59,291 nucleotides of DNA from Bacillota bacterium (GTDB taxonomy: Bacteria; Bacillota; Clostridia; Lachnospirales; Lachnospiraceae). The stretch covers positions 1-59,291 of the forward strand of contig JAEWJZ010000007.1 in assembly GCA_023386315.1 (NCBI GenBank). The letters are read 5' to 3'. Positions 13,375 to 34,032 of the stretch are shown one piece after another (positions within the stretch are counted from its first letter, which is position 1; every line of letters begins with the position of its first letter). Position numbers and translations under genes: made by a program. The notes below the pieces were generated by a model that saw nothing but the letters and a program-made list of their open reading frames with translations, did not search any database and was not told the DNA's origin.

Positions 13375-13650
13375 TTGAAAACTTTTCCCAAACCTTTAAC
13401 TGCGCGAGAGGAACGAGAGTGTCTGGAACGATACCAGGAAGGGGATCAGGAGGCGAGAGCCACACTCATCGAGCGTAATATGCGTCTTGTGGCCCATGTT
13501 GCAAAAAAGTATCAGAATACAGACTATGATATGGAAGATCTCCTGTCCGTGGGGACTATCGGGTTAATCAAAGCTGTTAATACCTTTCATCCGGACAGAG
13601 GATCAAGGCTGGCCACTTATGCGGCGAAATGTGTGGAGAATGAGATCCTA
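13375..13650 (+). CDS. sigK: sigK segment 1 of 3: SigK regions 2.1-2.4
   Basis: 92 codons from a TTG start (AAGGTGG 6 nt upstream; an in-frame stop at 13351-13353 excludes a longer form). The product matches the first half of sporulation sigma-K: KPLTAREERECLERY, LIERNMRLVAHVAKKY, DMEDLLSVGTIGLIKAV and LATYAAKCVENEIL. There is no hydrophobic pro-sequence, unlike B. subtilis pro-sigma-K but as reported for C. difficile. The reading frame leaves sigK homology at the AATGAGATCCTA repeat and stops two codons later (TCA TAA) inside element 1. Alone it lacks all -35-binding parts and cannot act as a sigma factor. Confidence 0.95.
13639..13650 (+). repeat. Left attachment site of element 1 (12-bp direct repeat)
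   Basis: AATGAGATCCTA, identical to 21515-21526. It encodes Asn-Glu-Ile-Leu of SigK. It contains AATGA, the core I recall for the B. subtilis skin element, which interrupts the same codons. Confidence 0.95.
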
Positions 13651-14526
13651 TCATAACGGCTTCTGAAACCCGTTATGCCGGTTTCTGTATTGAGCAGGTG
13701 AAATTCCCATATTTTTTCTGAAAACCTTAGAAAAATAATTGCTGTTGGAGTATCCGCATTCAGCTGCAATTTCCTCCAGACCCATGGACGTATTAAAAAG
13801 AAGGGATATAGCGTGTTCCAGACGGAGACTGGTTAGATATTTTATAGGAGAGTGTCCTGTCTGTAAATGAAACTGTCTGGTTAAATGGGGAAGACTCACA
13901 TCAAGTTCCCGGCACATCTGAGAGAGCCCGATTTGGTATTTATAGTTTTTCTGAAGCCACGCTGCAGCATCTTCCACACAGGCATTTTTGGTGGATTTTA
14001 GGGGCGTTTCCAGTTCTCTCATAAGCAGGGTCAGAAATTTATATAAAAAGATTCCGCTGTCGTAACGAACGTATTTTTTTCCTGCTTTCACAGCCTGGAA
14101 TTCCTCTAAAAATAATAATATGGCCTGACTTGTATTAGCAATAGAAAAAAATTTTCCTGCCAGAGCCTGAATTCGCTTAAAAAAATAATGGCCCATCTCC
14201 CCGTCAAAATGTATGTAAAAGTAGTTCCATGAACAATTTTCAGCCAGGTAGTATCTGCTGAAGTCGGGAAATGTAATAAAAAAAGCATTTCCAGGGGAAA
14301 GAATGTAAGTCTGGCCCTCTGTTTCAAACATTCCGCTTCCATCTAACGTATACTGAAACAAATAGCCCGAATAACCGCTGCGATTATAATTTTGAAAATC
14401 ATAGGATTCATTGCTCCTCTGTTCCATACCAAAATCCCAGAGAAAAAGGGGAGCATTCCATTGTCTGTCTATATCGAGAAAACCAAATGTCTGGCAAGAT
14501 TCATTCATCAAAAAATTACCCTCCAT
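13651..14526 (-). CDS. AraC family transcriptional regulator
   Basis: A 291-residue protein with an N-terminal cupin-like sensing domain (about 20-165; GYLFQYTLDGSGMFETEG) and two C-terminal helix-turn-helix units (about 185-285). These end with the AraC signature AAECGYSNSNYFSKVFRKNMGISPAQYR. It is divergent from the GH27 gene, so control of that enzyme by its sugar is likely. Its TGA stop directly abuts the left attachment repeat of element 1. Confidence 0.93.
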   Translation of the reverse strand: MEGNFLMNESCQTFGFLDIDRQWNAPLFLWDFGMEQRSNESYDFQNYNRSGYSGYLFQYTLDGSGMFETEGQTYILSPGNAFFITFPDFSRYYLAENCSWNYFYIHFDGEMGHYFFKRIQALAGKFFSIANTSQAILLFLEEFQAVKAGKKYVRYDSGIFLYKFLTLLMRELETPLKSTKNACVEDAAAWLQKNYKYQIGLSQMCRELDVSLPHLTRQFHLQTGHSPIKYLTSLRLEHAISLLFNTSMGLEEIAAECGYSNSNYFSKVFRKNMGISPAQYRNRHNGFQKPL

Positions 14527-14543
14527 GTATCGTGTTCTTACTC

Positions 14544-14571
14544 TTGTAATAGATTACCCAGTTGTTATAAT
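14544..14571 (+). promoter_or_regulatory. Promoter of the GH27 gene
   Basis: TTGTAA (14544-14549), 16 bp, TATAAT (14566-14571), with TG one base before the -10 (extended -10). Confidence 0.6.
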
Positions 14572-14613
14572 GATATCAGATTTATCAATAATTTACCAGG
14601 AAAGGATATGTAT

Positions 14614-15906
14614 ATGAGCAGAAATTTATCATCAGAAAAACCTCCCATGGGATGGAACAGCTATGACTATTATGATACGGCAGTAACAGAACGTGAGGTC
14701 AGGGATAATGCTGAATATATGTCACAGAATTTAAAAGAATATGGCTGGGAATATATCGTGGTTGACATACAGTGGTATGCCCATAATGCCGGAACCAGAC
14801 GGGAACAGTGCCAGTATATCCCCTTTGGGCAGATTGAGATTGATGAATACTCCAGACTCTGGCCGTGTCCAGACCGTTTTCCGTCTTCCTCGGGAGGTCA
14901 GGGTTTTAAACCACTGGCTGATTATATCCATGAACTGGGCTTAAAATTTGGAATTCACATCATGAGGGGTATTCCCCGTATAGCAGCTCATAACTGCATG
15001 AAAATAATGAATACAGATATAACAGCAGACAGGATTTCAGATCCTTATTCCATCTGCTCCTGGAATCCGGATATGTATGGAGTAATTCCACGGGCAGAGG
15101 GGGCCCAGGCGTATTATGATTCTATTTTTCAACTGTATGCCCAGTGGGGAGTGGATTTCATCAAATGCGATGATATCTGCCGTATGGATGCAGCGTCTGC
15201 AAAAGAAGAGATACGTATGCTTCATGATGCAATCAAAAACAGCGGAAGGCAGATGGTACTCAGCCTGTCACCAGGACCTGCACGTCTTGATGAGGCATGG
15301 CATTATGAAACTTACGCTAATATGTGGCGGATTACCGATGATTTCTGGGATGACTGGAATCTGTTAAAACAGATGTTTGTTCGCTGCGAACATTGGCAGA
15401 ATCATGTGAGTTCAGGAAACTACCCGGATTGTGATATGCTTCCGGTAGGTATGCTGGGAAAAGGCTTCGGCGATGAGAGAATGACCCGGTTTACAAAGGA
15501 TGAGCAGATTACTATGATGACTCTGTGGTGTATATTCCGTTCTCCGCTGATGATTGGCGCTGAACTGACTCTGATGGATAAATGGACGTTGGAACTGCTT
15601 AGAAATCCGGAAGTTTTAGCCCTTCTCAGTGACAAATGCAAAGCATCACAGCTTGCGCGCAATGCGGATCGGTGTATCTGGCACAGCAGCCATAAGGAAA
15701 ATGGTTTCAACTATCTGGCTGTATTCAATCTTTCTGAGGAGGAAAGTGAGATTGTCATTCCGCCCTGTCTGTTAAATATAGAAGATTTTAAAGATATCTG
15801 TTTTAAAGAACTTTGGACAGGTGAAACATTTACTTGTAAAACAAAGGATCTGGTATTAAAAGTACCTGGTCACGGAGCAAACCTTTGCCGGTTCCAGGGA
15901 ACCTGA
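14614..15906 (+). CDS. GH27-like alpha-galactosidase
   Basis: About 430 residues from ATG 14614, chosen because AGGAAAGG lies 8 nt upstream; the ATG at 14608 would be too close. It opens with PPMGWNSYDYYDT as in GH27/GH36 clan D enzymes. The likely nucleophile Asp is in FIKCDD and the acid/base Asp in RITDDFWDDW. A small C-terminal beta domain follows the barrel. No signal peptide, so it acts in the cytoplasm on imported oligosaccharide. It could cleave another alpha-linked sugar of clan D. The divergent AraC gene is the likely regulator; no sugar transporter accompanies it. Confidence 0.85.
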   Translation: MSRNLSSEKPPMGWNSYDYYDTAVTEREVRDNAEYMSQNLKEYGWEYIVVDIQWYAHNAGTRREQCQYIPFGQIEIDEYSRLWPCPDRFPSSSGGQGFKPLADYIHELGLKFGIHIMRGIPRIAAHNCMKIMNTDITADRISDPYSICSWNPDMYGVIPRAEGAQAYYDSIFQLYAQWGVDFIKCDDICRMDAASAKEEIRMLHDAIKNSGRQMVLSLSPGPARLDEAWHYETYANMWRITDDFWDDWNLLKQMFVRCEHWQNHVSSGNYPDCDMLPVGMLGKGFGDERMTRFTKDEQITMMTLWCIFRSPLMIGAELTLMDKWTLELLRNPEVLALLSDKCKASQLARNADRCIWHSSHKENGFNYLAVFNLSEEESEIVIPPCLLNIEDFKDICFKELWTGETFTCKTKDLVLKVPGHGANLCRFQGT

Positions 15907-15914
15907 CTTTGAAA

Positions 15915-15946
15915 GACATGGGAGTGAGAATATTCCCATGTCTTTT
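15915..15946 (+). terminator. Terminator after the GH27 gene
   Basis: GACATGGGA (15915-15923) pairs with TCCCATGTC (15934-15942), followed by T4C. Confidence 0.75.
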
Positions 15947-15983
15947 TCATATATATAAAAAAATAAGACAGGGGGGATGAAAA

Positions 15984-16448
15984 ACGAAACTGATCGCTGT
16001 TGGCAGCCGGCTGATGAAGGATGACGGGATTGGACTTATCGTTGCACAGGAGATGGAAAAACGGTTCCATAATTCAGAACTGGAAATAATCTATGGAGAA
16101 ACCGATAGTGAGGGATGTTTTTATTCTATGAATCCCGAGGATTTTATACTGATTTTAGATGCTATGACATCTGGAGAACGGCCGGGTACTGTGAAAATAT
16201 TTTCCTTAAACGAGCTTATGGACCAGGGAACGAATCTGTCCATGCAACACGACATGAGTTTTCTGGATCTGATGAAACTTTACAGATGTTCCGTAAAAGG
16301 ATACTTAATTGGGATTGAGGCTTCCCGGATTGTTCCAGGCCTTGAGCTAAGTCCTGCCCTTTCCAGGCAGCTTCCGGAAATTTGCAGAGAAACAGAAGAT
16401 ATTATAAGAGGTATTCTGTCAGAAGAAGTAAAGCGGGAAACAGAATGA
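15984..16448 (+). CDS. [NiFe]-hydrogenase maturation protease (HycI/HyaD-like)
   Basis: This endopeptidase removes the C-terminal tail of the hydrogenase large subunit after nickel insertion. Family motifs are the N-terminal strand KLIAVGSRLMKDDGIG (Asp/Glu for nickel sensing), the central IYGETDSEG, ILILDAMTSG and the HDMSFLDLM segment. The first in-frame ATG is 16014, but that would remove the essential first strand and has no ribosome site. Upstream in the same frame the homology runs back to an ACG at 15984, 7 nt after GGGGGG. Either ACG is used or an ATG has mutated. An out-of-frame ATG at 15977 also exists. The large subunit it should process is encoded about 1.7 kb downstream. Confidence 0.75.
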   Translation, partial: TKLIAVGSRLMKDDGIGLIVAQEMEKRFHNSELEIIYGETDSEGCFYSMNPEDFILILDAMTSGERPGTVKIFSLNELMDQGTNLSMQHDMSFLDLMKLYRCSVKGYLIGIEASRIVPGLELSPALSRQLPEICRETEDIIRGILSEEVKRETE

Positions 16449-16470
16449 AGTGCCTTCTTGTACAAAAAAT

Positions 16471-16602
16471 ATGGAAATAAGGCTTAAAAGGCAGGCTTGC
16501 ACATATATTCTAACAGATAAGCGCCATCTGATCATAGCAGTTCATCCTTTAACCAGACAGAGTGATGATGATTTGGCGTTTCTTCAGAGATTTGACCGGT
16601 GA
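16471..16602 (+). CDS. Possible 43-residue small protein
   Basis: ATG 16471 to TGA 16600-16602, reading MEIRLKRQACTYILTDKRHL and ending DDDLAFLQRFDR. It lies between the protease and the cytochrome b5 gene in the same direction. No clear ribosome site is seen and I recognise no family. It could be a small accessory protein of the hydrogenase cluster or chance. Confidence 0.3.
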   Translation: MEIRLKRQACTYILTDKRHLIIAVHPLTRQSDDDLAFLQRFDR

Positions 16603-16637
16603 ATAGGAAACATAAAAACGGGTAAGGAGGTTTAAAT

Positions 16638-17297
16638 ATGGAAATGGATTTGCTAATGACATATCTTGTAAGCAGTTTAAAGAGATTAAATGCTGATGTG
16701 GAGAAACTTCGCTCTAATCAATACAACAGCGATGATGTACTGGATCACTTAAGCAGTGAATTAATTATGCTGCAGAATCATGTCTATTATTTCGGACAGA
16801 TGCAGGAGAAAGGTTTATTTGCCAGTCAGATGGACGATCAGGCAAGAGGACTGACAGGATGCCAAATGGGACCGACAGGAGGTCAAATGGGACCGACGGG
16901 TGTGCCAATGGGCTCAACAGGTGCAGGCCCAACAGGAGGTCCAACAGGTGCAGGCCCAACCGGCGGTGAAACGGGAGGCCCAACCGGCGGTGAAACAGGA
17001 GGAGCAACAGGAGGAGAGCAGCCGGGAGAAATCCCAGAGCCAGAACCCCTGACCTATTTTACACCGGAGCAGCTGTCACAATATGATGGAAGAAACGGTG
17101 CTCCGGCTTATGTTGCAGTCAATGGAGTAGTCTATAATGTAACCAATAACCGGTTATGGTCAGGAGGAAATCATTTCTGGGGGCTGTCTGCAGGAAGGGA
17201 TTTAAGCGTAGAGTTTGCATCCTGTCATCCGGGAGCAATGGTTTTAAGTGTGCTGCCGGTTGTAGGGTACATGATTCAGGAACAGGGGGAGCAATAA
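16638..17297 (+). CDS. Collagen-like linker protein with C-terminal cytochrome b5 domain
   Basis: A 219-residue protein in three parts. Residues 1-66 are helical and coiled-coil-like. Residues 71-130 are low complexity, made of GPTGG, GAGPTG and GETGG units. Residues 138-212 match the cytochrome b5-like heme/steroid-binding fold (YFTPEQLSQYDGRNGAPAYV, VNGVVYNVT, HFWGLSAGRDLS, FASCHPG). His179 and His197 are the candidate heme ligands. No signal peptide. It ends 3 nt before the hydrogenase small subunit, so it may carry electrons to or from that enzyme. The ribosome site is AAGGAGG. Confidence 0.8.
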   Translation: MEMDLLMTYLVSSLKRLNADVEKLRSNQYNSDDVLDHLSSELIMLQNHVYYFGQMQEKGLFASQMDDQARGLTGCQMGPTGGQMGPTGVPMGSTGAGPTGGPTGAGPTGGETGGPTGGETGGATGGEQPGEIPEPEPLTYFTPEQLSQYDGRNGAPAYVAVNGVVYNVTNNRLWSGGNHFWGLSAGRDLSVEFASCHPGAMVLSVLPVVGYMIQEQGEQ

Positions 17298-17300
17298 TCA

Positions 17301-18194
17301 TTGAAGGGAGAACATTCATGTCCTTTTCAGGAGTTTAAATTAAAGGAAACCACACATCTGGTATCCAGGGCAATGGAGGAAATCGGAAGCCAGAAGCTGA
17401 CAAAGCCTAATCTGGTATGGCTGGAGCTGGATGGATGCACAGGAAATACCATTTCCCTGCTTGACGGTCAGAATCCGGATTTTCAGTATCTTATGACACA
17501 GATGACAAACTTTATTTACAGCAACAGTTTGATTGCATCTGAGGGCTCAGAAGCGATGGATCAGCTGTTCGATATGATTGGAAATGAGTATATACTCGCA
17601 GTAGAGGGAGCTGTTTCCAGGAAGGACAATGGGCTGTATCATATTATTGGACGTCATGAGGAGAAAGAAGTGACAGGTCTGGAAGCTGCAATCAGGCTGG
17701 GAGAACATGCCTCCCATATCATTGCAGTTGGAGACTGTGCATCTTATGGTGGGGTATCGGCAGCAAGACCGAATCCGGCAGACTGCACTGGAATTTCAGA
17801 TGTTGTGGACAGGAAAGTGATTAAGCTGACGGGATGTCCCTGCCATCCGGACTGGCTAATGGGAACAGTGGCATATTTAATTCTTTACGGGGAACCGCCT
17901 CTGGACGATATGGACCGGCCGTTGATGTTCTATGGCATAACAATTCATGATCGCTGTCCCAGAAGATCTTATTTTGACGAGGGCATTTTTGCGACAAAGC
18001 TGGGAGAAGAGACTTGTATGTTCATGCTGGGGTGCAGGGGGCCAGTGACCCAGACGGACTGCCCGATTCGCCAATGGAACGGGCACGTAAACTGGCCGGT
18101 GGGAGATGACACTCCCTGCATCGGATGTGCTCAGTTTGGATTTCCGGATGCCATGGAGCCTTTCATCACTTATGATACCATGAGGGAGGAATAA
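17301..18194 (+). CDS. [NiFe]-hydrogenase small subunit with altered proximal cluster site
   Basis: A 297-residue iron-sulfur subunit starting at TTG 17301 (GGGGGA upstream; there is no earlier ATG). Recognisable blocks are GDCASYGG, KLTGCPCHPDW, IHDRCPRRSYFDEGIFA and the C-terminal Cys-rich CMFMLGCRGPV...CPIRQWNG...CIGCAQFGFPD. The first proximal-cluster motif, usually CxGC, reads C46-T-G-N49, so one cysteine ligand is replaced by Asn. No Tat signal and no C-terminal anchor, so the enzyme should be cytoplasmic. It is followed 1 nt later by the large subunit. No hypABCDEF genes are in the window; these must be elsewhere for the enzyme to mature. Confidence 0.9.
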   Translation: MKGEHSCPFQEFKLKETTHLVSRAMEEIGSQKLTKPNLVWLELDGCTGNTISLLDGQNPDFQYLMTQMTNFIYSNSLIASEGSEAMDQLFDMIGNEYILAVEGAVSRKDNGLYHIIGRHEEKEVTGLEAAIRLGEHASHIIAVGDCASYGGVSAARPNPADCTGISDVVDRKVIKLTGCPCHPDWLMGTVAYLILYGEPPLDDMDRPLMFYGITIHDRCPRRSYFDEGIFATKLGEETCMFMLGCRGPVTQTDCPIRQWNGHVNWPVGDDTPCIGCAQFGFPDAMEPFITYDTMREE

Positions 18195-18195
18195 T

Positions 18196-19572
18196 ATGGC
18201 GGAGACAATTATTATCAATCCGGTTACCAGAATCAACGGTTTTATGGAAATAGAAGCAGTGGTGGGAAATAATGCCGTGACAGATGCAAAGACAAAAGGA
18301 CTGATGTTTCGCGGATTTGAAAAGATGCTTACAGGCAGAAGTCCATTGGATGCAGTGTATTTTACACAGCGTATCTGTGGAATCTGCTCCACAGCCCATT
18401 CTATGGCTGCCTCTTTAGCCCTGGAAGATGCCCTTGGGATTGTTCCGTCAGAGCAGGGCAGGTATGTAAGGGATCTGCTTCATGCCTGTGAATTTCTGCA
18501 GAATCATCTAAGGCATCTTTACCAGTATACTCTTCCGGACTATGTGAAACTGCCGGAGGGTTATCCTCTCTTTAAAACAGATCACAACGATTACAGGCTG
18601 CCCAAAGAGGTTAATACACGCCTGGTAAATGATTATTTTGAATCTCTGGAATACAGCAGGAATGCCCATAAAATGTTAGCCATTCTGGGAGGAAAGGCAC
18701 CTCACAATCATGGAGTATTTATAGGCGGAATCACGTCACCTGTTACAGTTGATATGATTATTGCCATTAAATCAATTTTATTCGGGATTGAACAGTTTAT
18801 AACGGAAAAAATGCTGCCGGATGTGTATGAAATTGCCGCTTATTATCCGGAATATTATCATTTTGGAGGCGGCTATCGTAATCTTTTAACCTATGGCTGC
18901 TTTGATCATTATAAAGAGCTTGGGACTTTATACGTTGACCCATATGTTTATACAAATGAACAGTATTCCCATTTTGATCCGGCACTTATCGCCCAGTCAG
19001 ACGAATATGCGTGGTTTAATGAAGCGGATGAACCGGACAGGAATAAGCCGGACGCCTATTCCTGGATCAGAGCCCCCAGATACAACGGGATGCCTTTTGA
19101 AGTGGGACCGTTAGCAAGACAATGGCTGTCTGGAGAGTACAGACATGGGATATCTGTTATGGACAGAACCATTGCCAGGGTTCTGGAAGCAAAGAAAATC
19201 ACACAGATCATGAATACTCTTTTGGAAAATCTCATTCCCGATGTGCCGATGCAGCAGGAGTATACAGTACCGGAACATGCTTATGGAACAGGTCTGATTG
19301 ATACAACCCGCGGAGCACTTGGCCACTGGCTGACGATTGAAAACAGGAAAATCCTGTTCTACCAGATTATTACTCCTTCCGCCTGGAACCTATCCACTCA
19401 GACAGGACAAAGAAAGGGAACAGCAGAACAGGCACTTATGGGTGCCCCGGTGAAAGAAGAGAGTATGCCGGTGGAGATAGGGAGAATCATAAGATCCTTT
19501 GATCCCTGCGTTTCCTGTGCCACTCACGTGTTCGCTCCGGGAAAATGGGATAAAATTATTCAGGTTGTTTAA
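18196..19572 (+). CDS. [NiFe]-hydrogenase large subunit
   Basis: A 458-residue catalytic subunit carrying the Ni-Fe site. N-terminal ligands are in RICGICS (Cys61, Cys64) and C-terminal ligands in DPCVSCATH (Cys438, Cys441). Cleavage after His444 by the maturation protease would release a 14-residue tail, VFAPGKWDKIIQVV. All four cysteines are present, so the gene looks intact. It resembles group 1 uptake-type subunits in overall plan; the subgroup cannot be set by eye. Its last 17 nt overlap the converging 62-residue gene. Confidence 0.94.
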   Translation: MAETIIINPVTRINGFMEIEAVVGNNAVTDAKTKGLMFRGFEKMLTGRSPLDAVYFTQRICGICSTAHSMAASLALEDALGIVPSEQGRYVRDLLHACEFLQNHLRHLYQYTLPDYVKLPEGYPLFKTDHNDYRLPKEVNTRLVNDYFESLEYSRNAHKMLAILGGKAPHNHGVFIGGITSPVTVDMIIAIKSILFGIEQFITEKMLPDVYEIAAYYPEYYHFGGGYRNLLTYGCFDHYKELGTLYVDPYVYTNEQYSHFDPALIAQSDEYAWFNEADEPDRNKPDAYSWIRAPRYNGMPFEVGPLARQWLSGEYRHGISVMDRTIARVLEAKKITQIMNTLLENLIPDVPMQQEYTVPEHAYGTGLIDTTRGALGHWLTIENRKILFYQIITPSAWNLSTQTGQRKGTAEQALMGAPVKEESMPVEIGRIIRSFDPCVSCATHVFAPGKWDKIIQVV

Positions 19573-19744
19573 GCACCTGAGTACTTTCTGCTTTTATTGC
19601 GTCTAACAGCGCTTTTTTCTGGTCATTTGGGCAGTGAAGCAGGCGGACTGACTGCATAAGTACCTGATTATGAATGACGGCTGCCCTTCTGCCAAGTTCT
19701 TTTTTATCTTCCTCAGTCTGGGGATTATATACGATCATATTCAT
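19556..19744 (-). CDS. 62-residue protein with sigma-E-like promoter; candidate excision factor
   Basis: A small charged helical protein (MNMIVYNPQTEEDKKELGRR..., then VRLLHCPNDQKKALLDAIKA). I recognise no family. It converges on the hydrogenase large-subunit gene and is divergent from the serine recombinase. AAGG stands 8 nt before the ATG. Upstream on its strand is a close match to a mother-cell sigma-E promoter. In C. difficile a small sigma-E-dependent protein is reported as the recombination directionality factor of skin excision. Position, size and promoter make this the best candidate for that role here, by inference only. Confidence 0.55.
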   Translation of the reverse strand: MNMIVYNPQTEEDKKELGRRAAVIHNQVLMQSVRLLHCPNDQKKALLDAIKAESTQVLKQPE

Positions 19745-19774
19745 AGAGAATGCCTTACAATTCAGGGTTTATAT

Positions 19775-19805
19775 ATTTGTATGTTATTCTGCGTGTCCGG
19801 TATGT
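19775..19805 (-). promoter_or_regulatory. Candidate sigma-E promoter of the 62-residue gene
   Basis: On the minus strand: ACATACC (19799-19805), 15 bp, then CATACAAAT (19775-19783). The -10 is a perfect CATACAnT. The predicted start is about 23 nt before the ATG at 19744. Confidence 0.5.
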
Positions 19806-19845
19806 TTGAGGACTCGCTTTCCATGAGAAAACAAGGAGGATTTGT

Positions 19846-21519: not shown

Positions 21520-21526
21520 GATCCTA
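21515..21526 (+). repeat. Right attachment site of element 1 (12-bp direct repeat)
   Basis: AATGAGATCCTA, identical to 13639-13650. In the predicted circle junction, AGCCGT (21494-21499) and ACGGCT (13656-13661) form an inverted repeat whose centre falls on the first two bases, AA, of this repeat. Confidence 0.95.
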
Positions 21527-21817
21527 ATGCTCCTTCGTGCTAATAAAAAATATTCAAAAGAGGTTTCTTTATATGAACCCATCGGTGTAGACAAGGATGG
21601 AGAAACAGTGAGTCTTCTTGATGTGATCGAAATGGAGAATAAGGAAACGTTGGAGACAATCATACTAAAGCAGGATATCAAGGAACTTTATGAAGTTTTT
21701 GATTCCTGTTTAAAGGACAACGAAAAGACGATCATCGGCATGCGCTATGGACTTCATGGAGGCAGGGAATACACACAGAGGGAGATTGCAGATCTCATGG
21801 GAATTTCGAGATCCTAC
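21527..21817 (+). CDS. sigK: sigK segment 2 of 3: linker and first half of region 4.2
   Basis: 97 codons continuing SigK after segment 1: MLLRANKKYSKEVSLYEPIG, VDKDGETVSLLDVI, DNEKTIIGMRYGL and YTQREIADLMGISRSY. The open frame starts further left (21455) inside the recombinase gene, but that part is not SigK-like. After RSY the frame leaves homology: it reads SAVIIGIKNRL and stops at 21853, where SigK proteins continue VSRxEKxAL. The break is in the recognition helix of the region 4.2 helix-turn-helix, at TAC 21815-21817. Removing element 1 alone would thus give a SigK with a garbled -35-binding helix. Confidence 0.94.
21815..21816 (+). other. Left crossover dinucleotide of element 2
   Basis: TA of the Tyr codon TAC. 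Joining here to TA at 33964-33965 restores ISRSY-VSRLEKKAL in frame. The inner flank carries GCTGTC (21821-21826), half of the attP dyad. Confidence 0.85.
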
Positions 21818-22021: not shown

Positions 22022-22048
22022 ATGTTCAACTCATAAGGGGGAATTTGT

Positions 22049-22711: not shown

Positions 22712-22730
22712 TTCGTACATAACTCATATA

Positions 22731-25379: not shown

Positions 25380-25388
25380 GGTGGCGGA

Positions 25389-26426: not shown

Positions 26427-26479
26427 TCTAAGATTCATGTGCGGGTAATGAAACAATGCTATTCTAACATTGGATTAAG

Positions 26480-26492
26480 CCAATTAATTGTG
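26480..26492 (+). repeat. Shared 13-mer before the ABC ATPase gene
   Basis: CCAATTAATTGTG, the second copy of the motif at 22009-22021. Located 33 bp before the chosen ATG. Confidence 0.4.
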
Positions 26493-26525
26493 TGAAATCA
26501 ATTGTTTAGAAAGGTGTGGCAGATT

Positions 26526-27209
26526 ATGAGTTTATTAGAAATCAGTGCTCTTTGTAAAACCTATGGTTCAGGAGAAACGGCAGTTGAGGCATTAAAAAAT
26601 GTGAATTTTACTGTTCCGAAAGGTGAGTTTATTGCAGTAGTGGGTGAATCGGGTTCTGGAAAAAGTACATTACTGAACATGATAGGCGCACTTGACATGC
26701 CATCGTCAGGTAAAGTGATGATAGCCGGAAAAAATATTTTCCAGATGAAGGATGAGGAACTGACCATATTTCGCCGCAGAAATATCGGATTTATCTTTCA
26801 GGCATTTAACTTAATACCGGAACTCAATGTAGAGCAGAACATTGTTTTTCCTCTATTGCTTGATTACCAGAAACCGGACCCGGAATACGTAGAAGAAATA
26901 CTTTCTGTACTATCTTTAAAAGACAGACGAAACCATCTGCCGCGTCAGCTGTCCGGAGGCCAGCAGCAGCGGGTGGCCATCGGAAGAGCTCTGATTGCGC
27001 GTCCTATGTTAATTCTTGCTGATGAACCCACAGGAAATTTAGATACTCAAAATAGTGCTGAAGTAATAGCACTTTTAAAGACAGCATCGAAACGTTACCA
27101 GCAGACGATAATCATGATTACTCATAACAGGGGCCTGGCTTCTGCAGCTGACCGGGTTTTAGAGGTGACGGACGGCATACTTACTGATCTGGGGAGGTAT
27201 GTTCAATGA
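26526..27209 (+). CDS. ABC transporter ATP-binding protein (element 2)
   Basis: About 227 residues from ATG 26526, chosen because AAAGGTG lies 9 nt upstream; a TTG at 26502 is a poorer option. Walker A GESGSGKS, signature LSGGQQQR, Walker B ILADEPTG and H-loop THN are present. It overlaps the permease gene by 4 nt (ATGA). It energises the FtsX-type permease and is probably induced by the two-component system next door. Confidence 0.93.
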
Positions 27210-29524
27210 ATAACTATCTTTCCCTTGTTTTTCAATATGCCAGAGTACACAAAAGGAAAAGCCGGCTGACGGTGATATGCATTACTGTATCAGTTATGCT
27301 GGTGACAACTATTTTTGGAATGGCAGATATGAGCTTAAGATCCCAGACAGATGAGGCAATCCGCCGCTATGGCAACTGGCATGCCATCATATCTGATCTT
27401 CCGGATAATCTTGCTGTAAAAATAGGAAAACGGCAGGATATAAATGTGGCCGGGTATCTTGGTATGGCTGCAGATACAACCTATAAGGGGAAGGAATTAA
27501 TTGTACAGAGCAGCAGCGAGGAGCTTGCCAGGCAGATGAATTTAAGTGTGACAAACGGACACTATCCGGCTTCTGCCCGGGAGGCCTTGCTGGACAGACC
27601 GGCGATGGAACAATTTAACCTTTCTATTGGAGACTGGATAGAGGTTGCTTTTAGCGATGGGCAGGTACGGAAGTATCAGATAAGCGGAATGTATCGGGAT
27701 TATTCTACTTTAAAAGGATCGGATGCTCACGGTCTGCAGTTATCACCAGAGGGAATGCGTGAACTTCCGGCCGGCCAGTATAAGGAGTTTTTTTATATTC
27801 AATTTAAAAACAAAGTAAATATTAATGAAGCTCTCTCACAGCTGAAAGCGGAATATCAATTGTCTGATAAGCAGGTTTCAACAAATGTGATGCTTCTGGG
27901 GTTAATGGGACAGAGTGATAATTCGACCATGCTGTCGGTTTATCTTACTGCAGGTATTTTATTCGTCCTCGTTTTACTGGCAGGCGTTTTCATGATTGCC
28001 AGCAGTTTTAATATGAGTATATTGGAACGAACTCAGTTTTTTGGCCTGCTGCGCTGCCTGGGCGCGACAAAAAAACAGATTAGACGCTATGTCAGGCTGG
28101 AAGGTCTTCAGTATTGCCTGAGAGCGATTCCGGCAGGGGTATTAGCCGGCAGTATCATACTATGGATAGCAATTGCCGTTCTCAATGGATTAAATTCCCA
28201 GTACCTTCCAGTCATGCCCATGTTTAAGATCAGTTTACCGGGGATTCTTGCCGGTGCAGGGACCGGAATAATCGTAGTGATGATTGCTTCTGATGCACCG
28301 GCAAAACATGCGGCTAAGGTTTCGCCCCAGGAGGCAGTTACAGGCAATATCAATCAATTTAATAATTACAGTATTACAAAAGCATCAAATACAAAGCTGT
28401 TTCCTGTTGATATAGCGATGGGTTTAAACCATGCTTTTTCAAATACCAAAAGCATGATATTAATTTCCGGATCTTTTGCAATCAGCATTATTCTCTTTTT
28501 GTGTTTTACGATCCTTGTTACCTTCATGAATCATGCTTTAAGTCCTTTAAAGCCATATGCTCCTGATATGACACTGGAAGGAGATCAGAATACAGCACTG
28601 CTGAATCACTCTCTGAAAGAAAGCCTTAAATCACTTCCTTATGTAAAAAATGTGTATGGGAGAATGTTCTATACCAATATCCAGGCCAGCGATAAAAATG
28701 GAGCAAATACAGCAACCCTTGTTTCCTATGATGAACCCCAGTTTCAATGGGCGAAGGAGGCACTGATTTCGGGCGATATTGATCAGGTGCAGAATGGAAA
28801 CGGTGTACTGGTGGATTACGGGTATTTAGAACGATTTGGCTGGAAGATCGGAGATGTAGTTACGCTGAATATCGGAGCAATACCATATAAAGTAAAAGTT
28901 GATGGAATTGTATCAGGAGTTCCCTTTGATTCTGTGAACGGGGAATGGATCATCGTCTGTTCCGAATCTACGTTTACTGCACTGACCGGTATTTCTGACT
29001 ATAAAGTCATTGATATGCAGGTATCACAGGATATATCTGATCAGGTCAGACAAAAGCTTCCCGCCCGGATAAAGCTTCTTGATTTGCAGCAGCACAACAA
29101 TGAAGTCCGTACCGGTTATTTTGCGATGGCTGTATTTGTATATGGATTTTTACTGGTAATAGCTTTTGTCGCACTGATTAATATTATTAATACGGTTAAT
29201 GCCAGTGTGTCTGGCAGAATGAATCATTATGGAGTCATGCGCGCAGTTGGTATGTCCGGCGGGCAGTTAAAGCGGGTAGTTATGGCAGAGGCAGCTGCAT
29301 ATGCCATAACCGGCAGCATTACGGGAGGCATTTGGGGGCTTCTTTTACACCGGATCTTCTTTAACATGTTAATTACTGCAAACTGGGGCCAAAATTGGCA
29401 GCCGCCTTTACTCGTCCTGAGTATTATAATTTCAGCCGCCATATTAACAACCTTTGCGGCGGCAATTTCACCAACAAAGAAGATGGAAGAAATGGTGATT
29501 GTGAATGTAGTGAATGCATGGTAA
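27206..29524 (+). CDS. FtsX/MacB-type ABC permease, two FtsX domains
   Basis: A 772-residue permease with a TM near the N-terminus, a first extracytoplasmic domain (about 45-240), three TMs of FtsX domain 1 (about 245-370), a further TM, a second extracytoplasmic domain (about 440-620) and three C-terminal TMs of FtsX domain 2 (YGVMRAVGMSGGQLKRVVM). Such long permeases act in antimicrobial-peptide resistance or lipoprotein-type export; the substrate is unknown. Confidence 0.9.
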   Translation: MNNYLSLVFQYARVHKRKSRLTVICITVSVMLVTTIFGMADMSLRSQTDEAIRRYGNWHAIISDLPDNLAVKIGKRQDINVAGYLGMAADTTYKGKELIVQSSSEELARQMNLSVTNGHYPASAREALLDRPAMEQFNLSIGDWIEVAFSDGQVRKYQISGMYRDYSTLKGSDAHGLQLSPEGMRELPAGQYKEFFYIQFKNKVNINEALSQLKAEYQLSDKQVSTNVMLLGLMGQSDNSTMLSVYLTAGILFVLVLLAGVFMIASSFNMSILERTQFFGLLRCLGATKKQIRRYVRLEGLQYCLRAIPAGVLAGSIILWIAIAVLNGLNSQYLPVMPMFKISLPGILAGAGTGIIVVMIASDAPAKHAAKVSPQEAVTGNINQFNNYSITKASNTKLFPVDIAMGLNHAFSNTKSMILISGSFAISIILFLCFTILVTFMNHALSPLKPYAPDMTLEGDQNTALLNHSLKESLKSLPYVKNVYGRMFYTNIQASDKNGANTATLVSYDEPQFQWAKEALISGDIDQVQNGNGVLVDYGYLERFGWKIGDVVTLNIGAIPYKVKVDGIVSGVPFDSVNGEWIIVCSESTFTALTGISDYKVIDMQVSQDISDQVRQKLPARIKLLDLQQHNNEVRTGYFAMAVFVYGFLLVIAFVALINIINTVNASVSGRMNHYGVMRAVGMSGGQLKRVVMAEAAAYAITGSITGGIWGLLLHRIFFNMLITANWGQNWQPPLLVLSIIISAAILTTFAAAISPTKKMEEMVIVNVVNAW

Positions 29525-29543
29525 TTGAATAATTTCTGTATGG

Positions 29544-29587
29544 AAAGCGGTTAGAGTATAATTAATTACTTTAACCGCTTTTTTTTA
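29544..29587 (+). terminator. Terminator after the element 2 ABC operon
   Basis: AAAGCGGTTA (29544-29553) pairs with TAACCGCTTT (29572-29581), then T through 29586. Confidence 0.85.
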
Positions 29588-29628
29588 TTATCGGTGCAGC
29601 TGTCAAAGTTCCGTGCTGCTCCTTTCGG

Positions 29629-29658
29629 TAATAGGACAATCCGCGGTTTTCATAGAGT
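29629..29658 (+). promoter_or_regulatory. Candidate sigma-E-like promoter of the recombinase module
   Basis: TAATAGG (29629-29635), 15 bp, CATAGAGT (29651-29658). One -10 mismatch to CATACAnT, and the same 15-bp spacing as the candidate before the 62-residue gene of element 1. Similar leader sequence occurs, as I recall, in other Lachnospiraceae recombinase modules that have nothing to do with sporulation, so this is weak. Confidence 0.3.
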
Positions 29659-29688
29659 TATATGAAAGACCGGCAAAGAGGTGAGCGA

Positions 29689-29940
29689 ATGCTGACTGCA
29701 GATGAATTACAGCAGTTACGTGCAATTGATCCATCCAGTATTGATATAGATACATTAGTGGACATTTGCTCTGTAAAAATAAACACGGCACTGCCAAAAG
29801 AAGAACGGATGGCTGATTTTATCAGACAGATTAAAAACCCATATCTTTTTAAGTGCGGGGACATGGTAATCCAATGTGTATTTTCAGATACGGAGACTAC
29901 TTTAAATGACCGGCTAAAGCAGTATTTAAAAAATGTATAA
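29689..29940 (+). CDS. DUF6870-like small protein upstream of the recombinase trio
   Basis: About 83 residues from ATG 29689 (AGAGGTG just upstream; the ATG at 29662 has no ribosome site). It reads MLTADELQQLRAIDPSSIDI, then LVDI and a C-terminal LFKCGDMVIQCVFSD. Similar small proteins often stand beside recombinase modules of integrative elements. It is the first gene of the recombinase operon, so it is a candidate accessory or directionality factor for element 2. That role is inference. Confidence 0.7.
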   Translation: MLTADELQQLRAIDPSSIDIDTLVDICSVKINTALPKEERMADFIRQIKNPYLFKCGDMVIQCVFSDTETTLNDRLKQYLKNV

Positions 29941-29980
29941 CGCAGATCAGCGATGCAAGAGCTGGTGAAATGAGGTTTTT

Positions 29981-31621
29981 ATGGTTTTATCTGATGGTAG
30001 TAGAAAATATAAAGCAGCAATCTATATCCGGGTATCAAAAGACGACGGAGATAAAATGGAGAGCAACAGCATTTCAAATCAAAGGACGTTAATCCGGTCA
30101 TTTTTACAGAATAAGCCTGAAATTGAGATCTGCTCGGAACGGATCGATGACGGATACAGCGGGGTATCCTTTGACAGACCTGCCGTGAGAGAAATGCTGC
30201 GTGATATCCGGGAAGGATCTGTTAATTGCGTTGTTGTAAAGGATTTGTCCCGTTTCGGAAGAAATTATATTGAAACCGGCCGTTATATTGAGCAGGTATT
30301 CCCGTTTATGGGAGTACGTTTTATTGCCATTAACGATGGCTTTGACAGCGCCAGTAAACTGAGCCAGTCAGATGGTATGATTATTCCCTTTAAGAATCTG
30401 ATTAATGATGCGTATAGCCGGGATATTTCTATTAAAGTACGAAGCGGACAGAATATACGCCGCAGACAGGGGGATTATATAGGGGCATTTCCGCTGTATG
30501 GGTATTTTCGGTCAGCGGAAAATAAGTATAAGCTGGTAATAGACGATTACGCAGCAATGACAATCCGCGACATATTTAAATGGAAAATTCAGGGCATGAG
30601 CAATCAGGGTATTGCCAGACGTCTCAATGCTATGGGTATTTTATCACCGCTGGAGTACAAACGGATGCTGGGGTGGGCTTACAGCACTTCTTTCCAGCTT
30701 CATCCGGTGGCAAAATGGTCTGCCGCTTCTGTTCTCCGTGTTTTGAAAAATGAAATTTATACCGGAACCATGATACAGGGAAAGGAAAGCAGCCCCAACT
30801 ACAAAATAAAAAAAAGATTCAAAAAGCCCCCAGCCCAGTGGATGAAAGTAGCTGACACACACCAGGCGATTATCTCAGATGATGATTTTGCCCTGGTAAA
30901 ACGGCTGCTGGCTGCTGATACGAGAACTGCACCGGAAAATGATGATCTTCATCTGTTTTCCGGTTTGCTGCAGTGCGGAAGCTGCCATCATGGTATGATT
31001 AGAAGACCTGTTAAATCCGGCGGCAAAACCTATGTTTATTACGTATGCAGGACACAAAAAACAGACAGGAAAAAATGCACGGGCAGAAGCCGGATCGGCG
31101 AACTTAAATTAACCGCCTGTGTGCTGGAAGTGCTGCAAAAACTGATCCATACGGCCTGTGAGATGGATGAGATTCTGGATTACATAGATGCGTTACCCTT
31201 AAAACAGGATGACGTACAAAAAACAGACTTGCGTATTCAAAAAAAACAGGAAGAGTACAGCCACTGTCAAAAAAATATTTTGGAGCTTTATGAAGATTAT
31301 AAAAAGGGAATTGTAAACCGGGATAACTACTTTGCATGGAAATCAAATTATGAAGAGAACTGCAGGCAGATAAAAGAGGCGGTCAAAATATTAAATGAGG
31401 AACGATGGAATCTTTTCAATAATTATGAATTGCAAAACGGATGGATTGAGGAATTCAGAAAATATAAAGAGATCAGGGAGCTGACACGTCCGCTGCTGGC
31501 GTCACTGATTGAAAAAATTGAAGTAACTGATAAAAATACGCTGCGGGTTTATTTTACTTTTTCCACAGAGTTTGAAAGAGTATACCATACAGGAGGTGAT
31601 TTTACTGGCAAGACCAAATAG
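29981..31621 (+). CDS. Serine recombinase 1 of the element 2 trio
   Basis: A 546-residue large serine recombinase. Catalytic Ser19 lies in YIRVSKDD and the arginine motif in VVKDLSRFGRN. It has a recombinase domain with PLYGYFRS and a zinc ribbon (LLQCGSCHHGM...YVCRTQKTDRKKC), and a C-terminal coiled coil. This is the only one of the three with a full zinc ribbon plus coiled coil. It overlaps the next gene. Confidence 0.95.
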   Translation: MVLSDGSRKYKAAIYIRVSKDDGDKMESNSISNQRTLIRSFLQNKPEIEICSERIDDGYSGVSFDRPAVREMLRDIREGSVNCVVVKDLSRFGRNYIETGRYIEQVFPFMGVRFIAINDGFDSASKLSQSDGMIIPFKNLINDAYSRDISIKVRSGQNIRRRQGDYIGAFPLYGYFRSAENKYKLVIDDYAAMTIRDIFKWKIQGMSNQGIARRLNAMGILSPLEYKRMLGWAYSTSFQLHPVAKWSAASVLRVLKNEIYTGTMIQGKESSPNYKIKKRFKKPPAQWMKVADTHQAIISDDDFALVKRLLAADTRTAPENDDLHLFSGLLQCGSCHHGMIRRPVKSGGKTYVYYVCRTQKTDRKKCTGRSRIGELKLTACVLEVLQKLIHTACEMDEILDYIDALPLKQDDVQKTDLRIQKKQEEYSHCQKNILELYEDYKKGIVNRDNYFAWKSNYEENCRQIKEAVKILNEERWNLFNNYELQNGWIEEFRKYKEIRELTRPLLASLIEKIEVTDKNTLRVYFTFSTEFERVYHTGGDFTGKTK

Positions 31622-32633
31622 AAATAATCGTGATCTGCTGGAATCCGTTTCTTTGGACAAAGCCTGTATATCAACTTACAATACCGCTGTTTATGCCAGG
31701 CTTTCCATTGAAGATAATGGATGCGGCAGCGATTCCATTAAAAACCAGATTGAGATGATAAAAAACTATATAGCAGAAAAAAAAGAGCTGACTCTTCATT
31801 CTATATTTTACGATAACGGTATGACAGGTACTAATTTTGACAGACCGGGATTCGCAGCCATGCTTGAGGAAATTAAGAAGGGCAATATCAATTGTGTTGC
31901 AGTGAAGGATCTTTCCCGTTTTGGGAGAAACTATATGGAGGCGGGAAATTATCTGGAAAAAATTTTCCCATTCCTGGGGGTGCGGTTTATATCCATTAAT
32001 GATAATTATGACAGTATTTCTGTTACATCCAATGACGAACTGGTTCTTTCACTCAAAAATATCTGTCATCATATTTATGCAAAGGATATTTCGCGTAAAA
32101 TATGCACGGTATTTGAAACGAAAAAGAAACAGGGGTTGTTTCTGGGAAGATTTGCGCCCTACGGATATAAAAAATCCGATAACAACAGATATAAACTGGA
32201 GATAGACGAAGAAACGGCCGGCATAGTACGTGATATATTTAAAATGCGTCTGGAAGGGATCAGTGCTGCTGAAATTGCACGAATCTTAAATGAACAGGGA
32301 ACTGCTTCCTATAGCAGGCTTCTGTATGAAAGGGGGTTCATTAAGGGAACCAGGGGAGAAGCCCTGTCTCACTGGTCCGGCGGTTCGGTCCTGGGTATCT
32401 TGAAAAATCCGGTTTATTGCGGCTGTATGGTGGAGCGTAAAAGTGATTCTGCTTATTACAAAGGGGGACAAAAGATCGAAATCCCAAAATCAGAATGGAA
32501 TTACATCGAAAATACACATAAAGCAATTATTGATAAGGCTGCTTTTGATAAGGTCCGGCAGTTAATTGAGATTTCAGGCAAGGCTGCAGGCAGGAAGAAG
32601 TCTGGGTCCAACAGCATGAGGCCGTCAGGATGA
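31605..32633 (+). CDS. Serine recombinase 2 of the element 2 trio (short)
   Basis: About 342 residues if translation starts at CTG 31605, after AGGAGGTGA; a TTG at 31572 would precede that site. Catalytic Ser34 lies in YARLSIED, with VKDLSRFGRNYMEAGNYLE, HHIYAKDISRKI and FAPYGYKK. The protein ends soon after the recombinase domain, with no zinc ribbon or coiled coil. Overlaps recombinase 3 by 4 nt (ATGA). The catalytic residues look intact, so it is probably a working subunit of a heteromeric recombinase rather than a relic. Confidence 0.9.
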   Translation: MARPNRNNRDLLESVSLDKACISTYNTAVYARLSIEDNGCGSDSIKNQIEMIKNYIAEKKELTLHSIFYDNGMTGTNFDRPGFAAMLEEIKKGNINCVAVKDLSRFGRNYMEAGNYLEKIFPFLGVRFISINDNYDSISVTSNDELVLSLKNICHHIYAKDISRKICTVFETKKKQGLFLGRFAPYGYKKSDNNRYKLEIDEETAGIVRDIFKMRLEGISAAEIARILNEQGTASYSRLLYERGFIKGTRGEALSHWSGGSVLGILKNPVYCGCMVERKSDSAYYKGGQKIEIPKSEWNYIENTHKAIIDKAAFDKVRQLIEISGKAAGRKKSGSNSMRPSG

Positions 32634-33916
32634 GCGGGCAATACGTAACCGCTCTCTATCTGCGGATATCGGATGAGGATAATAATTCAGGGGAAGCCCG
32701 TGAGAGTGAAAGTATATCCGGCCAGCGGCTTTTGCTCACTGATTTTGTCCGCGGGCATAGAGAACTTTCCGGCAGCCGGATTATCGAACTGGTGGATGAT
32801 GGTTTCAGCGGTACGAATTTTGACCGCCCTGGGATAAAAAAATTACTGGAAATGGCAAAGTTACACCAGGTCAATTGTATTGTTGTTAAGGATTTTTCCA
32901 GATTTGGAAGGAATTATCTTGAAGCAGGAAATTATCTGGAACAGATCTTTCCATTTCTCGGCATACGGTTTTTATCGGTGAATGATCATTTTGACAGCTT
33001 TGAGAATATAGGAGCGGCAGGAGCCATTGAAGTTGGTTTTAAGAATATCATTCATGAGGCATACAGTAAGGATCTTTCGGAGAAGATAAGAAGTGTACGG
33101 CGGATGATGGCAAAACAGGGAAAGTTTGTGACAGCTTTTGCGCCGTATGGTTATAAAAAGGCAGAAAAGAGTAAAAACCAGCTGCTTGTGGATGAGGAGT
33201 GTGCGGTTGTTGTCAGACGCATTTTTGAATTGTTCTTAAGCGGAATGGGAAGTACATCCATCGCCTGTTTATTGAATAATGAAGGAATTCCTTCCCCGTA
33301 TATGGTACGCAGACAGCGGAAAGAAAAGTTCCGCTGCACCGGTTGCAAGAAAGAAACACACTGGACAGCAGGAACGGTTACCAGAATATTGTCCGACCAG
33401 AGATATGTGGGAGATGCGGTATATGGTAAGGTCGCGCCAAAAGAGACAGGGAGCAAAAAGGATGTCCGTATTCCGGAAGAAAACTGGATCATTGTACCAG
33501 ATGCACACCCGGGTATTGTGATACGGGAAATATTTGAAGCTGCCAGGTCCCTTAAAAAGAAGTACAGAGTACATGAAAGCAGGAACAGAGCTGACTGCAT
33601 TGCAGGACATCTGCAGGACTCACAACTGGAAACGGCTATCCTTACCTGTTTACAACTGCTGGTACTTTTAGTACAAAAAGGTGACAAAGCAGCAAAACAG
33701 AGTGATGCATTTAAACTGTACAGGCGGTTTAAAGCAGGAAAGATATCGGAAGATATCTTTGTTAAAAAAACTACAGATATAGAAACAGAGCTTTTGCACA
33801 TTCGTTTTCCTCATTTGCATGAGGAAGCAATGAAAGAGTTTCTATTGGCTTTCCATGTTGAAGCCGATGGAAAAGTTATCATTGTATGGAGTTTCCGGGA
33901 TCCATATCAGTTGTAG
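32630..33916 (+). CDS. Serine recombinase 3 of the element 2 trio
   Basis: A 428-residue serine recombinase. Catalytic Ser14 lies in YLRISDED, with VVKDFSRFGRNYLEAGNYLE, HEAYSKDLSEKI and FAPYGYKKAE. A short Cys pair (CTGCKK) lies in the DNA-binding domain; the usual zinc ribbon is missing and a brief helical tail follows. It ends 48 nt before the right attachment TA, the edge position typical of the recombinase that excises an element. High similarity of the Ser and Arg motifs across all three suggests duplication. Confidence 0.93.
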   Translation: MSGQYVTALYLRISDEDNNSGEARESESISGQRLLLTDFVRGHRELSGSRIIELVDDGFSGTNFDRPGIKKLLEMAKLHQVNCIVVKDFSRFGRNYLEAGNYLEQIFPFLGIRFLSVNDHFDSFENIGAAGAIEVGFKNIIHEAYSKDLSEKIRSVRRMMAKQGKFVTAFAPYGYKKAEKSKNQLLVDEECAVVVRRIFELFLSGMGSTSIACLLNNEGIPSPYMVRRQRKEKFRCTGCKKETHWTAGTVTRILSDQRYVGDAVYGKVAPKETGSKKDVRIPEENWIIVPDAHPGIVIREIFEAARSLKKKYRVHESRNRADCIAGHLQDSQLETAILTCLQLLVLLVQKGDKAAKQSDAFKLYRRFKAGKISEDIFVKKTTDIETELLHIRFPHLHEEAMKEFLLAFHVEADGKVIIVWSFRDPYQL

Positions 33917-33963
33917 CGGAGAATGAGAGAGAAAAATTTTTTGTCCTTAACAAGACAGCCGAA

Positions 33964-33965
33964 TA
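33964..33965 (+). other. Right crossover dinucleotide of element 2
   Basis: TA at the start of sigK segment 3. The inner flank carries GACAGC (33954-33959), four bases from the TA, mirroring GCTGTC at the left end. Confidence 0.85.
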
Positions 33966-33966
33966 T

Positions 33967-34032
33967 GTATCAAGACTTGAAAAAAAAGCACTGGAACGGC
34001 TTAGAACAGAATTGAAAAGAAATGGGATATAA
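33967..34032 (+). CDS. sigK: sigK segment 3 of 3: recognition helix and C-terminus
   Basis: 21 codons and a stop: VSRLEKKALERL, then RTELKRNGI. This is the usual end of SigK, following ISRSY in intact proteins. The open frame to its left has no start and no homology (KTAEY precedes). It is too short to be called by a gene finder, so the gene would normally be annotated as truncated. Added to segments 1 and 2 it gives 92 + 97 + 21 = 210 residues, close to C. difficile SigK size. Confidence 0.93.
   Translation, partial: VSRLEKKALERLRTELKRNGI

Follow-up and report, generated by a model that had tools for sequence, protein, structure and literature searches.

What becomes of a sporulation gene that is broken at two points? 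The question is raised by contig JAEWJZ010000007.1 of assembly GCA_023386315.1 (positions 1 to 59,291 of the forward strand, G+C 42.6%), a stretch of 59,291 nucleotides that we call the window, from a Lachnospiraceae bacterium which, judged by its sequence, is a Lacrimispora. Its sigK gene lies in three pieces, separated by two insertions that we call element 1 and element 2. The best reading we can offer is that these are two independent excisable elements within one sigK. In our opinion it is likely that the gene is repaired in development, and that the two intervening elements, which are not nested, are both excised in the mother cell, each by its own system. Below, W stands for the window, L-numbers denote loci and G-numbers denote genomes.

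The split gene and its product

The three segments (13375-13643, 21515-21816 and 33964-34032) join in frame to encode one SigK of 210 residues. The joins are made at a 5-bp repeat, AATGA (13639-13643 / 21515-21519), and at a TA pair (21815-21816 / 33964-33965) with which the Tyr codon of RSY/VSR begins; at joint 1 the remaining two frames reach a stop inside ten codons. An initial annotation, made from the letters of the window alone, had already proposed this continuous protein of 210 residues, and translation indeed runs uninterrupted across both joints. It had also located the segments correctly, but the ends it gave (13375-13650, 21527-21817 and 33967-34032) do not hold, because the crossovers, and not the ends of the open reading frames, set the limits at 13643, 21515, 21816 and 33964. 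The alignment with SigK families that it had proposed as a check came out well: the joined protein scores 294.2 bits with the NCBIfam SigK model NF004471 (cut-off 252) and 292.4 bits with TIGR02846 SigK, slightly below the cut-off of 298.65, while its SigE score, 242.6 bits, is well under both. On the TIGR02846 profile (227 positions) segment 1 occupies positions 24-114 and segment 2 positions 115-210; since the match begins at SigK profile position 25, this SigK has no pro-sequence.

Both elements lie inside the sigK coding sequence, precise excision of both restores the frame, and each carries its own large serine recombinase with the catalytic serine. Rightward serine recombinases close each gap, as had been noted before, one (REC1) in element 1 and three (REC2a, REC2b and REC2c, all of which keep the Y-x-R-x-S catalytic motif) in element 2. 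The TA crossover sits inside region 4.2, in agreement with the earlier statement that element 2 breaks the -35 recognition helix. Excision of element 1 alone is predicted to leave a product of 200 residues with half of region 4.2, ending in RSYSAVIIGIKNRL; excision of element 2 alone would leave a stump of 93 residues.

Is such a gene alive? Segment 3 is a piece of 22 codons (21 of them sense codons) that lies about 7 to 12 kb from the rest of the gene. Its 8 changes between W and L005 are all synonymous (P 1.2e-5 under neutrality); between L011 and L012, both double carriers, 12 are synonymous and 2 nonsynonymous (P 1.1e-6 under neutrality). Purifying selection is seen likewise in segments 1 and 2 where the changes suffice. 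Judging from these substitutions, the isolated third segment is under purifying selection, and some of its changes could be older than the insertion. No second match of SigK grade was seen in six genomes of relatives, nor in three more that are fragmentary for this question. The only other full-length relative listed for the double carriers G001 and G003 is a match of 48-49%, which in G003 scored as SigE, and the matches listed for the double carrier G002 include no other full-length SigK relative. The single carrier G004 (L. xylanisolvens ASCUSBR21) has an extra SigK/SigE-like sigma factor of 39% (G004:C1:513468-513965, a 208-aa frame), and nothing comparable is among the matches listed for the other five genomes of that search.

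Independence, excision and distribution of the two elements

The initial annotation had taken the two gaps for independent excisable elements, and we come to the same view because the recombinases are unrelated, the cores and arms differ, the elements are present independently, the empty sites are precise and the contig breaks are exact for each element. REC1 relatives match the REC2 proteins of the window at only 22-30%. Element 1 has the AATGA core, and element 2, with TA, is not of the AATGA type; the arms differ too. The predicted circle site of element 1, attP1, has dyad symmetry around the AA of AATGA, with 11-18 of 23 arm positions matching, and its centre is identical in all 11 loci resolved (12 were tried). 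In L031 both arms are unlike those of the other loci and yet match each other at 17 of 23 positions, as expected of arms that bind a recombinase. The TA crossover of attP2 likewise lies within a dyad, with 14-18 of 25 arm positions matching in seven copies (two of them near twins) against a mean of 7.8 and a maximum of 15 in 2000 random trials. When the left half of attL2 and the right half of attR2 of the window are compared with the uninterrupted L004, 2 of 60 positions differ, neither of them within 14 bases of the joint. The TGA stop of REC1 (21517-21519) falls within the AATGA core, thus the recombinase gene is unchanged by excision. The TA central pair of element 2 (21815-21816, 33964-33965) is its own complement, unlike the AA of element 1, so that the core by itself cannot fix orientation. 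A look for phage structural and lysis genes gave no phage structural family among the Pfam matches of the scanned open reading frames of either element.

Draft assemblies of relatives carry indirect signs of excision, whatever its timing. In L. defluvii PI-S10-B5A (G011) one contig ends in ...GAATGA, another begins with AATGAGATCC, and element 1 forms a separate contig of 7842 bp; all four contig pairings, including that of the end of element 1 with its own start, overlap by exactly the 5-bp core. In G007 a contig of 8176 bp is exactly element 2 from TA to TA, beginning with TACTCAGC and ending in ...ACAGACGAATA. The end of this contig shares exactly 95 bp with the contig that carries segment 3, and the shared stretch stops at the base immediately in front of the crossover. 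Breaks that are exact to the crossover are expected of a read graph when integrated and circular forms coexist, which suggests that excised circles exist in cells.

The double arrangement is found on one contig in L011 (isolate 12(A), apparently long-read), in L012 (L. algidixylanolytica SPL73) and in G026 (one contig of 4.5 Mb), L011 and G026 being near twins with 99.6% identity over host genes; L005 has the same arrangement, with a contig end falling inside element 1. A 96-residue query from sigK segment 2 has 100% matches in eight loci, including L. xylanisolvens and L. amygdalina, and the locus nearest to the window in the tree is L004 (L. amygdalina PI-S10-A1B), at 95.5% over host genes. 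A scan of 80 loci found both ends of the site-1 insertion in 13 of them and both site-2 ends in L005, L011, L012 and L040, with the left end only in L056, L064 and L071; in L040 site 2 is occupied and site 1 is not. Among 25 genomes of the genus, 24 have element 1 and six have both elements. Segment 2 was recovered in 22 of the 25, with attR1 in 21 and a break at the core in the remaining one (G011); attL1 is present in G007 and G019, whose contigs examined lack segment 2, and there is no sigK match among the contigs of G014. The genomes with element 2 at site 2 are G001, G002, G003, G026, G007 (by its exact element-2 contig) and G019 (by attR2 and segment 3). Relatives with none, one or both of the elements, which the initial annotation had proposed to look for, thus all exist: the Hungatella loci have none, 18 of the 25 genus genomes have element 1 only, and six have both. 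Structure and independent distribution together would make sigK one gene with more than one independently excisable element. In a wider sample of 397 genomes across the family, the attL2 pattern (up to two mismatches) occurs in two, both of this genus, and attR1 in nine; the attR1 counts are of exact matches only (nine of 52 genomes), as a pattern with one mismatch also picks up intact sigK (TAGAAAATGA). Matches from a search for SigK across the family, in which SigE and SigK are mixed, do not enter any of these frequencies.

How old is element 2? The identity of W to L005 is 88.3% for the host, 84.4% for REC1 and 82.0% for element 2; for G001 and G002 the corresponding values are 82.8, 75.8 and 74.6. 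A recent transfer of element 2 between the lineages of W and L005 was considered and rejected: the two hosts resemble each other more closely than their copies of element 2 do. Element 2 is absent from close relatives of W and of L005. Its divergence, which tracks that of host and REC1, favours an old acquisition followed by repeated clean loss, while simple parsimony on the tree would prefer three gains.

Several other loci deserve mention. In L037 (10286-11460) and L045 (10286-17790) an intact sigK 3' end is followed, 1.1 and 7.4 kb further on and after an attR2-like half site, by a second sigK 3' end, which looks like an element-2 insertion whose host gene has regained its 3' end. In L066 (9982-10350) attR1 is present, the sigK frame is lost a few bases past the usual site 2 (VSQRR, then a stop) and the contig stops before any segment 3; possibly a different element sits there at a shifted site. 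The viral contig L131, which at 12180 bp comes near the length of element 2, was rejected as an excised circle: it has no BLASTN similarity to the window, and the match, apparently a short hairpin, is put down to chance. The attP1 pattern was not found in viral contigs.

Features of the window at the split sigK gene (positions in the whole stretch)
Feature	Positions	Strand	Remarks
sigK promoter block GTAAAAGCACTTT...CATAAAAT and ribosome-binding site AAGGTGG before the TTG start	13300..13374	+	nearly invariant in 13 of 13 aligned loci; further upstream variable
sigK segment 1	13375..13643	+	region 2, residues 1-90; TTG start at 13375; ends in attL1 core AATGA 13639-13643
Element 1	13639..21514		7876 bp core to core; AATGA core; site 1 empty in Hungatella loci L016, L017 and others
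AraC-type regulator (cargo)	13651..14526	-	Pfam HTH_18, AraC_binding
Alpha-galactosidase (cargo)	14392..15906	+	Melibiase_2; start probably further in, close relatives 429-432 aa
HycI hydrogenase maturation protease (cargo)	16014..16448	+
Protein with C-terminal cytochrome b5-like domain (cargo)	16638..17297	+
NiFe hydrogenase small subunit (cargo)	17301..18194	+
NiFe hydrogenase large subunit (cargo)	18196..19572	+
62-aa protein	19556..19744	-	divergent from REC1; candidate directionality factor of element 1
Promoter-like block ACATACCGGACACGCAGAATAACATACAA of the 62-aa gene	19777..19805	-	-10 sigma-E-like; GGACA SpoIIID-like
REC1, large serine recombinase	19846..21519	+	YSRKS catalytic motif
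sigK segment 2	21515..21816	+	regions 3 to 4.2; attR1 core AATGA to attL2 TA 21815-21816
Element 2	21815..33963		12149 bp TA to TA; predicted empty site agrees with L004
Polysaccharide deacetylase (cargo)	22049..22711	+	common to L005, L011, L012
BNR/sortilin-like propeller protein (cargo)	22786..24573	+	common to L005, L011, L012
Response regulator, histidine kinase, ABC ATPase and FtsX permease block	24693..29524	+	missing in element 2 of L005, L011, L012
Promoter-like block ATAGGACAATC...CATA	29630..29654	+	ahead of DUF6870-REC2 operon
DUF6870 small protein	29662..29940	+	likely start ATG 29689; Pfam PF21757; candidate directionality factor of element 2
REC2a, large serine recombinase	29981..31621	+	full-length
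REC2b, serine recombinase	31572..32633	+	catalytic motif present; without zinc-ribbon tail in the window
REC2c, serine recombinase	32630..33916	+	catalytic motif present; without zinc-ribbon tail in the window
sigK segment 3	33964..34032	+	TA core, then VSRLEKKALERLRTELKRNGI and stop; second half of -35 recognition helix-turn-helix

The cargo of element 1 differs between loci. In L014 and L015 the element is cut to about 2.7 kb and retains, besides REC1, only a small divergent gene and a b5-domain relative; such a copy amounts to a minimal excision module of natural origin. The NiFe hydrogenase of the window and its maturation protease (16014-19572) sit inside a sigK-intervening element and would go from the mother-cell genome together with element 1.

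Control of the two excisions

A small gene of 55-64 aa divergent from REC1 is present in 15 of 20 loci examined (13 whole, two by their first codons; 12 were aligned), the minimal elements among them. It was not found in L031, L032, L035, L066 and L077, all outside the genus, where diverged forms may escape the search; L062, also outside the genus, does carry it. The 62-aa protein of the window has no match in Pfam, NCBIfam or PHROG and is predicted to fold into two helices (pLDDT 84.9). Upstream of the small gene stands ACATACCGGACACG...CATACAAAT, of which CATAYA is kept in all 15 loci and GGACA in 14 of them. The structure model of the DUF6870 protein is weak (pLDDT 69.2). A relative lies ahead of REC2a in all seven sigK site-2 elements examined; among these are L170, for which the stretch examined has no segment 3, and L171, in which the left end is on another contig. 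The 10-mer ATAGGACAAT is conserved in all seven (with one substitution in L171), followed by CATA in six. As consensus forms, CATACA stands for a sigma-E -10 and RRACA for the core of a SpoIIID site.

By analogy with CD1234 of C. difficile, described below, each of the two small genes is a candidate directionality factor, and one signal would then serve the two excisions: the conserved CATA/GGACA/CATA blocks of the two excision modules are alike, and sigma-E/SpoIIID may turn both keys. The initial annotation had spoken of a two-key lock; there are two elements, as it said, but two independent signals are probably not what controls them. The GGACA motif was also tried as a mark of sigK elements only, and this had to be rejected, as the motif is found at other recombinase clusters.

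The sequence of events that we propose is as follows. Vegetative cells and the germ line would carry a sigK that is inactivated at two points. Once in the mother cell, sigma-E together with SpoIIID would turn on the 62-aa protein for element 1 and, from the recombinase operon, the DUF6870 protein for element 2. REC1 would then fuse the first sigK segment to the second at AATGA, and the second would be fused to the third at TA by the REC2 system, in which REC2a is the most likely actor, each element leaving as a circle, and full-length sigma-K would appear only after the double excision. Since this sigma-K has no pro-sequence, the DNA rearrangement would be its main post-transcriptional brake. 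The timing, the cell type, the acting REC2 protein, the identity of the directionality factors and the occurrence of both excisions in one cell are what we infer here.

Element 2 has relatives that seem to split another sporulation gene, a spoVB-like one, to judge from the pieces on either side of the presumed insert. The search covered six genomes. In four of them (G422, G423, G428, G429; loci L172-L174 and contig G422:C48) the spore_V_B profile TIGR02900 is matched in two pieces on different contigs, one from position 1 or 2 to 279 and one from 279 to 460 or beyond, and for both of the two pieces that were scanned singly the best family is spore_V_B. REC2-like recombinases, a trio in three genomes and two matches in G422, are found no more than about 120 bases away from the 5' piece. 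In G001 and G005 the gene is whole, and all six genomes have a second spoVB-like gene, which is intact. In G422 and G423 sigK site 2 is interrupted as well.

With somewhat less confidence than we have in the double repair as such, we lean towards a wider interpretation. Sigma-K would be an AND gate written in DNA, in which two unrelated recombinase systems on the same sigma-E/SpoIIID-type promoters each delete their element before the late mother-cell programme; and element 2 would represent a family, not described before, of non-phage elements with three recombinases that are specialised in mother-cell sporulation genes (sigK region 4.2, the spoVB-like gene) and that join, and cleanly leave, genomes with the ancestral skin-site element.

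A number of observations weigh against our interpretation. The branching contigs could stem from rare spontaneous excision in growing cells. The second-sigK search covered the genomes of relatives, and the genome of the window could hold another copy. The 18 genus genomes that have element 1 alone manage without element 2. Two of the recombinases, REC2b and REC2c, are without their tails both in the window and in L005, while they are full length in L011 and L012. As for the promoter-like blocks, ATAGGACAA also occurs at five of ten recombinase-cluster loci outside sigK, with TAGGACA at a sixth, and the window shows no enrichment of the sigma-E-like pattern (5 found against 3.0 expected), so that its support comes from conservation. 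Finally, no spoVB match, whole copies included, reached the curated cut-off of the family.

Could only element 1 be of the skin type, element 2 being an ordinary three-recombinase mobile element that happens to sit in sigK and is excised sporadically, without regard to the timing of sporulation, double carriers sporulating poorly or only after its loss? In the genus nearly all genomes have element 1, and element 2 is patchy; REC2a-like recombinases, often clustered, are common elsewhere in Lachnospiraceae genomes, and of ten REC2-like clusters examined at other loci seven have DUF6870-like proteins and four lack any form of the promoter-like motif, hence not all clusters are of the same type as element 2. 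We nevertheless regard this possibility as unlikely: the divergence of element 2 follows that of the hosts in both pairs compared (W-L005 and G001-G002), which points to long residence, selection acts on segment 3 in the double carriers, the promoter-like 10-mer is kept in every sigK site-2 element, and relatives of the trio also adjoin a split spoVB-like gene. A further thought is that the state with element 1 alone removed matters in itself, the 200-residue SigK with half of region 4.2 binding core RNA polymerase as a competitor or partial sigma factor until element 2 leaves. The frame indeed stays open to a stop shortly past attL2 in the window, L096 and L104; however, the extra residues are dictated by the sequence of the att half-site, so that selection for them need not be assumed, and we give this idea only a slim chance.

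Three tandem fragments would ordinarily be annotated as a truncated gene, and one may ask if sigK is simply dead in the double carriers, which would then no longer make normal spores. We consider this very improbable in view of the selection on all three segments, the conserved sigK promoter block, the intact catalytic motifs of all four recombinases and the crossover-exact contig breaks; moreover, two papers (PMC11316579, PMC12578346) describe the genus as generally spore-forming. The misassembly that the initial annotation had feared is refuted for the relatives, where the double arrangement recurs on one contig in L011, L012 and G026, and with L005 showing it too (apart from the contig end inside element 1) the probability of an assembly chimera is, in our opinion, negligible.

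Repair of sigK by two excisions thus stays our preferred explanation, and it would make this the first candidate that we could trace of one sporulation gene that needs two independent DNA excisions. The double carriers include cultivated isolates (L011 and L012), while other members of the genus have one element and Hungatella loci none; with single, double and empty carriers at hand, the question of regulator versus tolerated parasite becomes testable. There is also a practical side: gene callers may call such a sigK truncated and overlook its third piece of 22 codons, and surveys may wrongly class these strains as non-sporulating.

Comparison with known systems

According to the cited papers, single sigK insertions are known in Bacillus, C. 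difficile, C. tetani, C. perfringens and Alicyclobacillus (PMC10745906, PMC5025042, PMC5553647, PMC13141910), AATGA being absent from other sigK insertions too (PMC10745906), and an intervening element is known in yabG (PMC10747680). Two elements in one sporulation gene are not reported in the titles and abstract openings of the papers listed in the literature survey, which mostly excludes subscription papers.

Element 1 is most like the skin of B. subtilis (SpoIVCA) and, in B. cereus AH820 and J7, the sigK insertions of the AATGA type: all lie in sigK, have an AATGA core (PMC10745906) and one large serine recombinase, and their removal restores the frame. Unlike them, element 1 has its recombinase at the 3' side and no phage structural family in its scanned reading frames, its sigK lacks a pro-sequence, and a second element follows. 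The skinCd of C. difficile (recombinase CD1231) shares with our locus the absence of a pro-sequence and a recombinase just upstream of the 3' part of sigK (PMC5025042). Its directionality factor CD1234, of 72 aa, requires both sigma-E and SpoIIID and stands behind a sigma-E promoter and a SpoIIID box (KRTAACARK in that species); by this description we propose it as a parallel to the small genes found here (PMC5025042). The site of skinCd differs from that of the B. subtilis skin, hence from that of element 1, and a single element is described in C. difficile.

For element 2 the nearest counterpart is gin, in gerE of B. cereus ATCC 10987, another non-phage element, which has three serine recombinase genes and interrupts a gene of the late mother-cell stage (PMC5595907). 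Element 2 shows the same combination, non-phage, three serine recombinases and a sporulation gene. The target genes differ, and gin has a girAB operon and a separate girC, the required one, whereas element 2 has a tandem trio behind DUF6870; this comparison, too, is made by description (PMC5595907).

The initial annotation knew of no described sporulation gene interrupted by two elements, and to that extent it stands; doubly interrupted genes as such are known from heterocyst-forming cyanobacteria (PMC4874684). There, as we propose here, one gene undergoes several excisions in a terminal cell: more than one element is present in 10 of 87 interrupted genes, and four in nifD of Rivularia (PMC4874684). 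These multiply interrupted genes belong to another phylum, another cell type and other genes than the sigK case.

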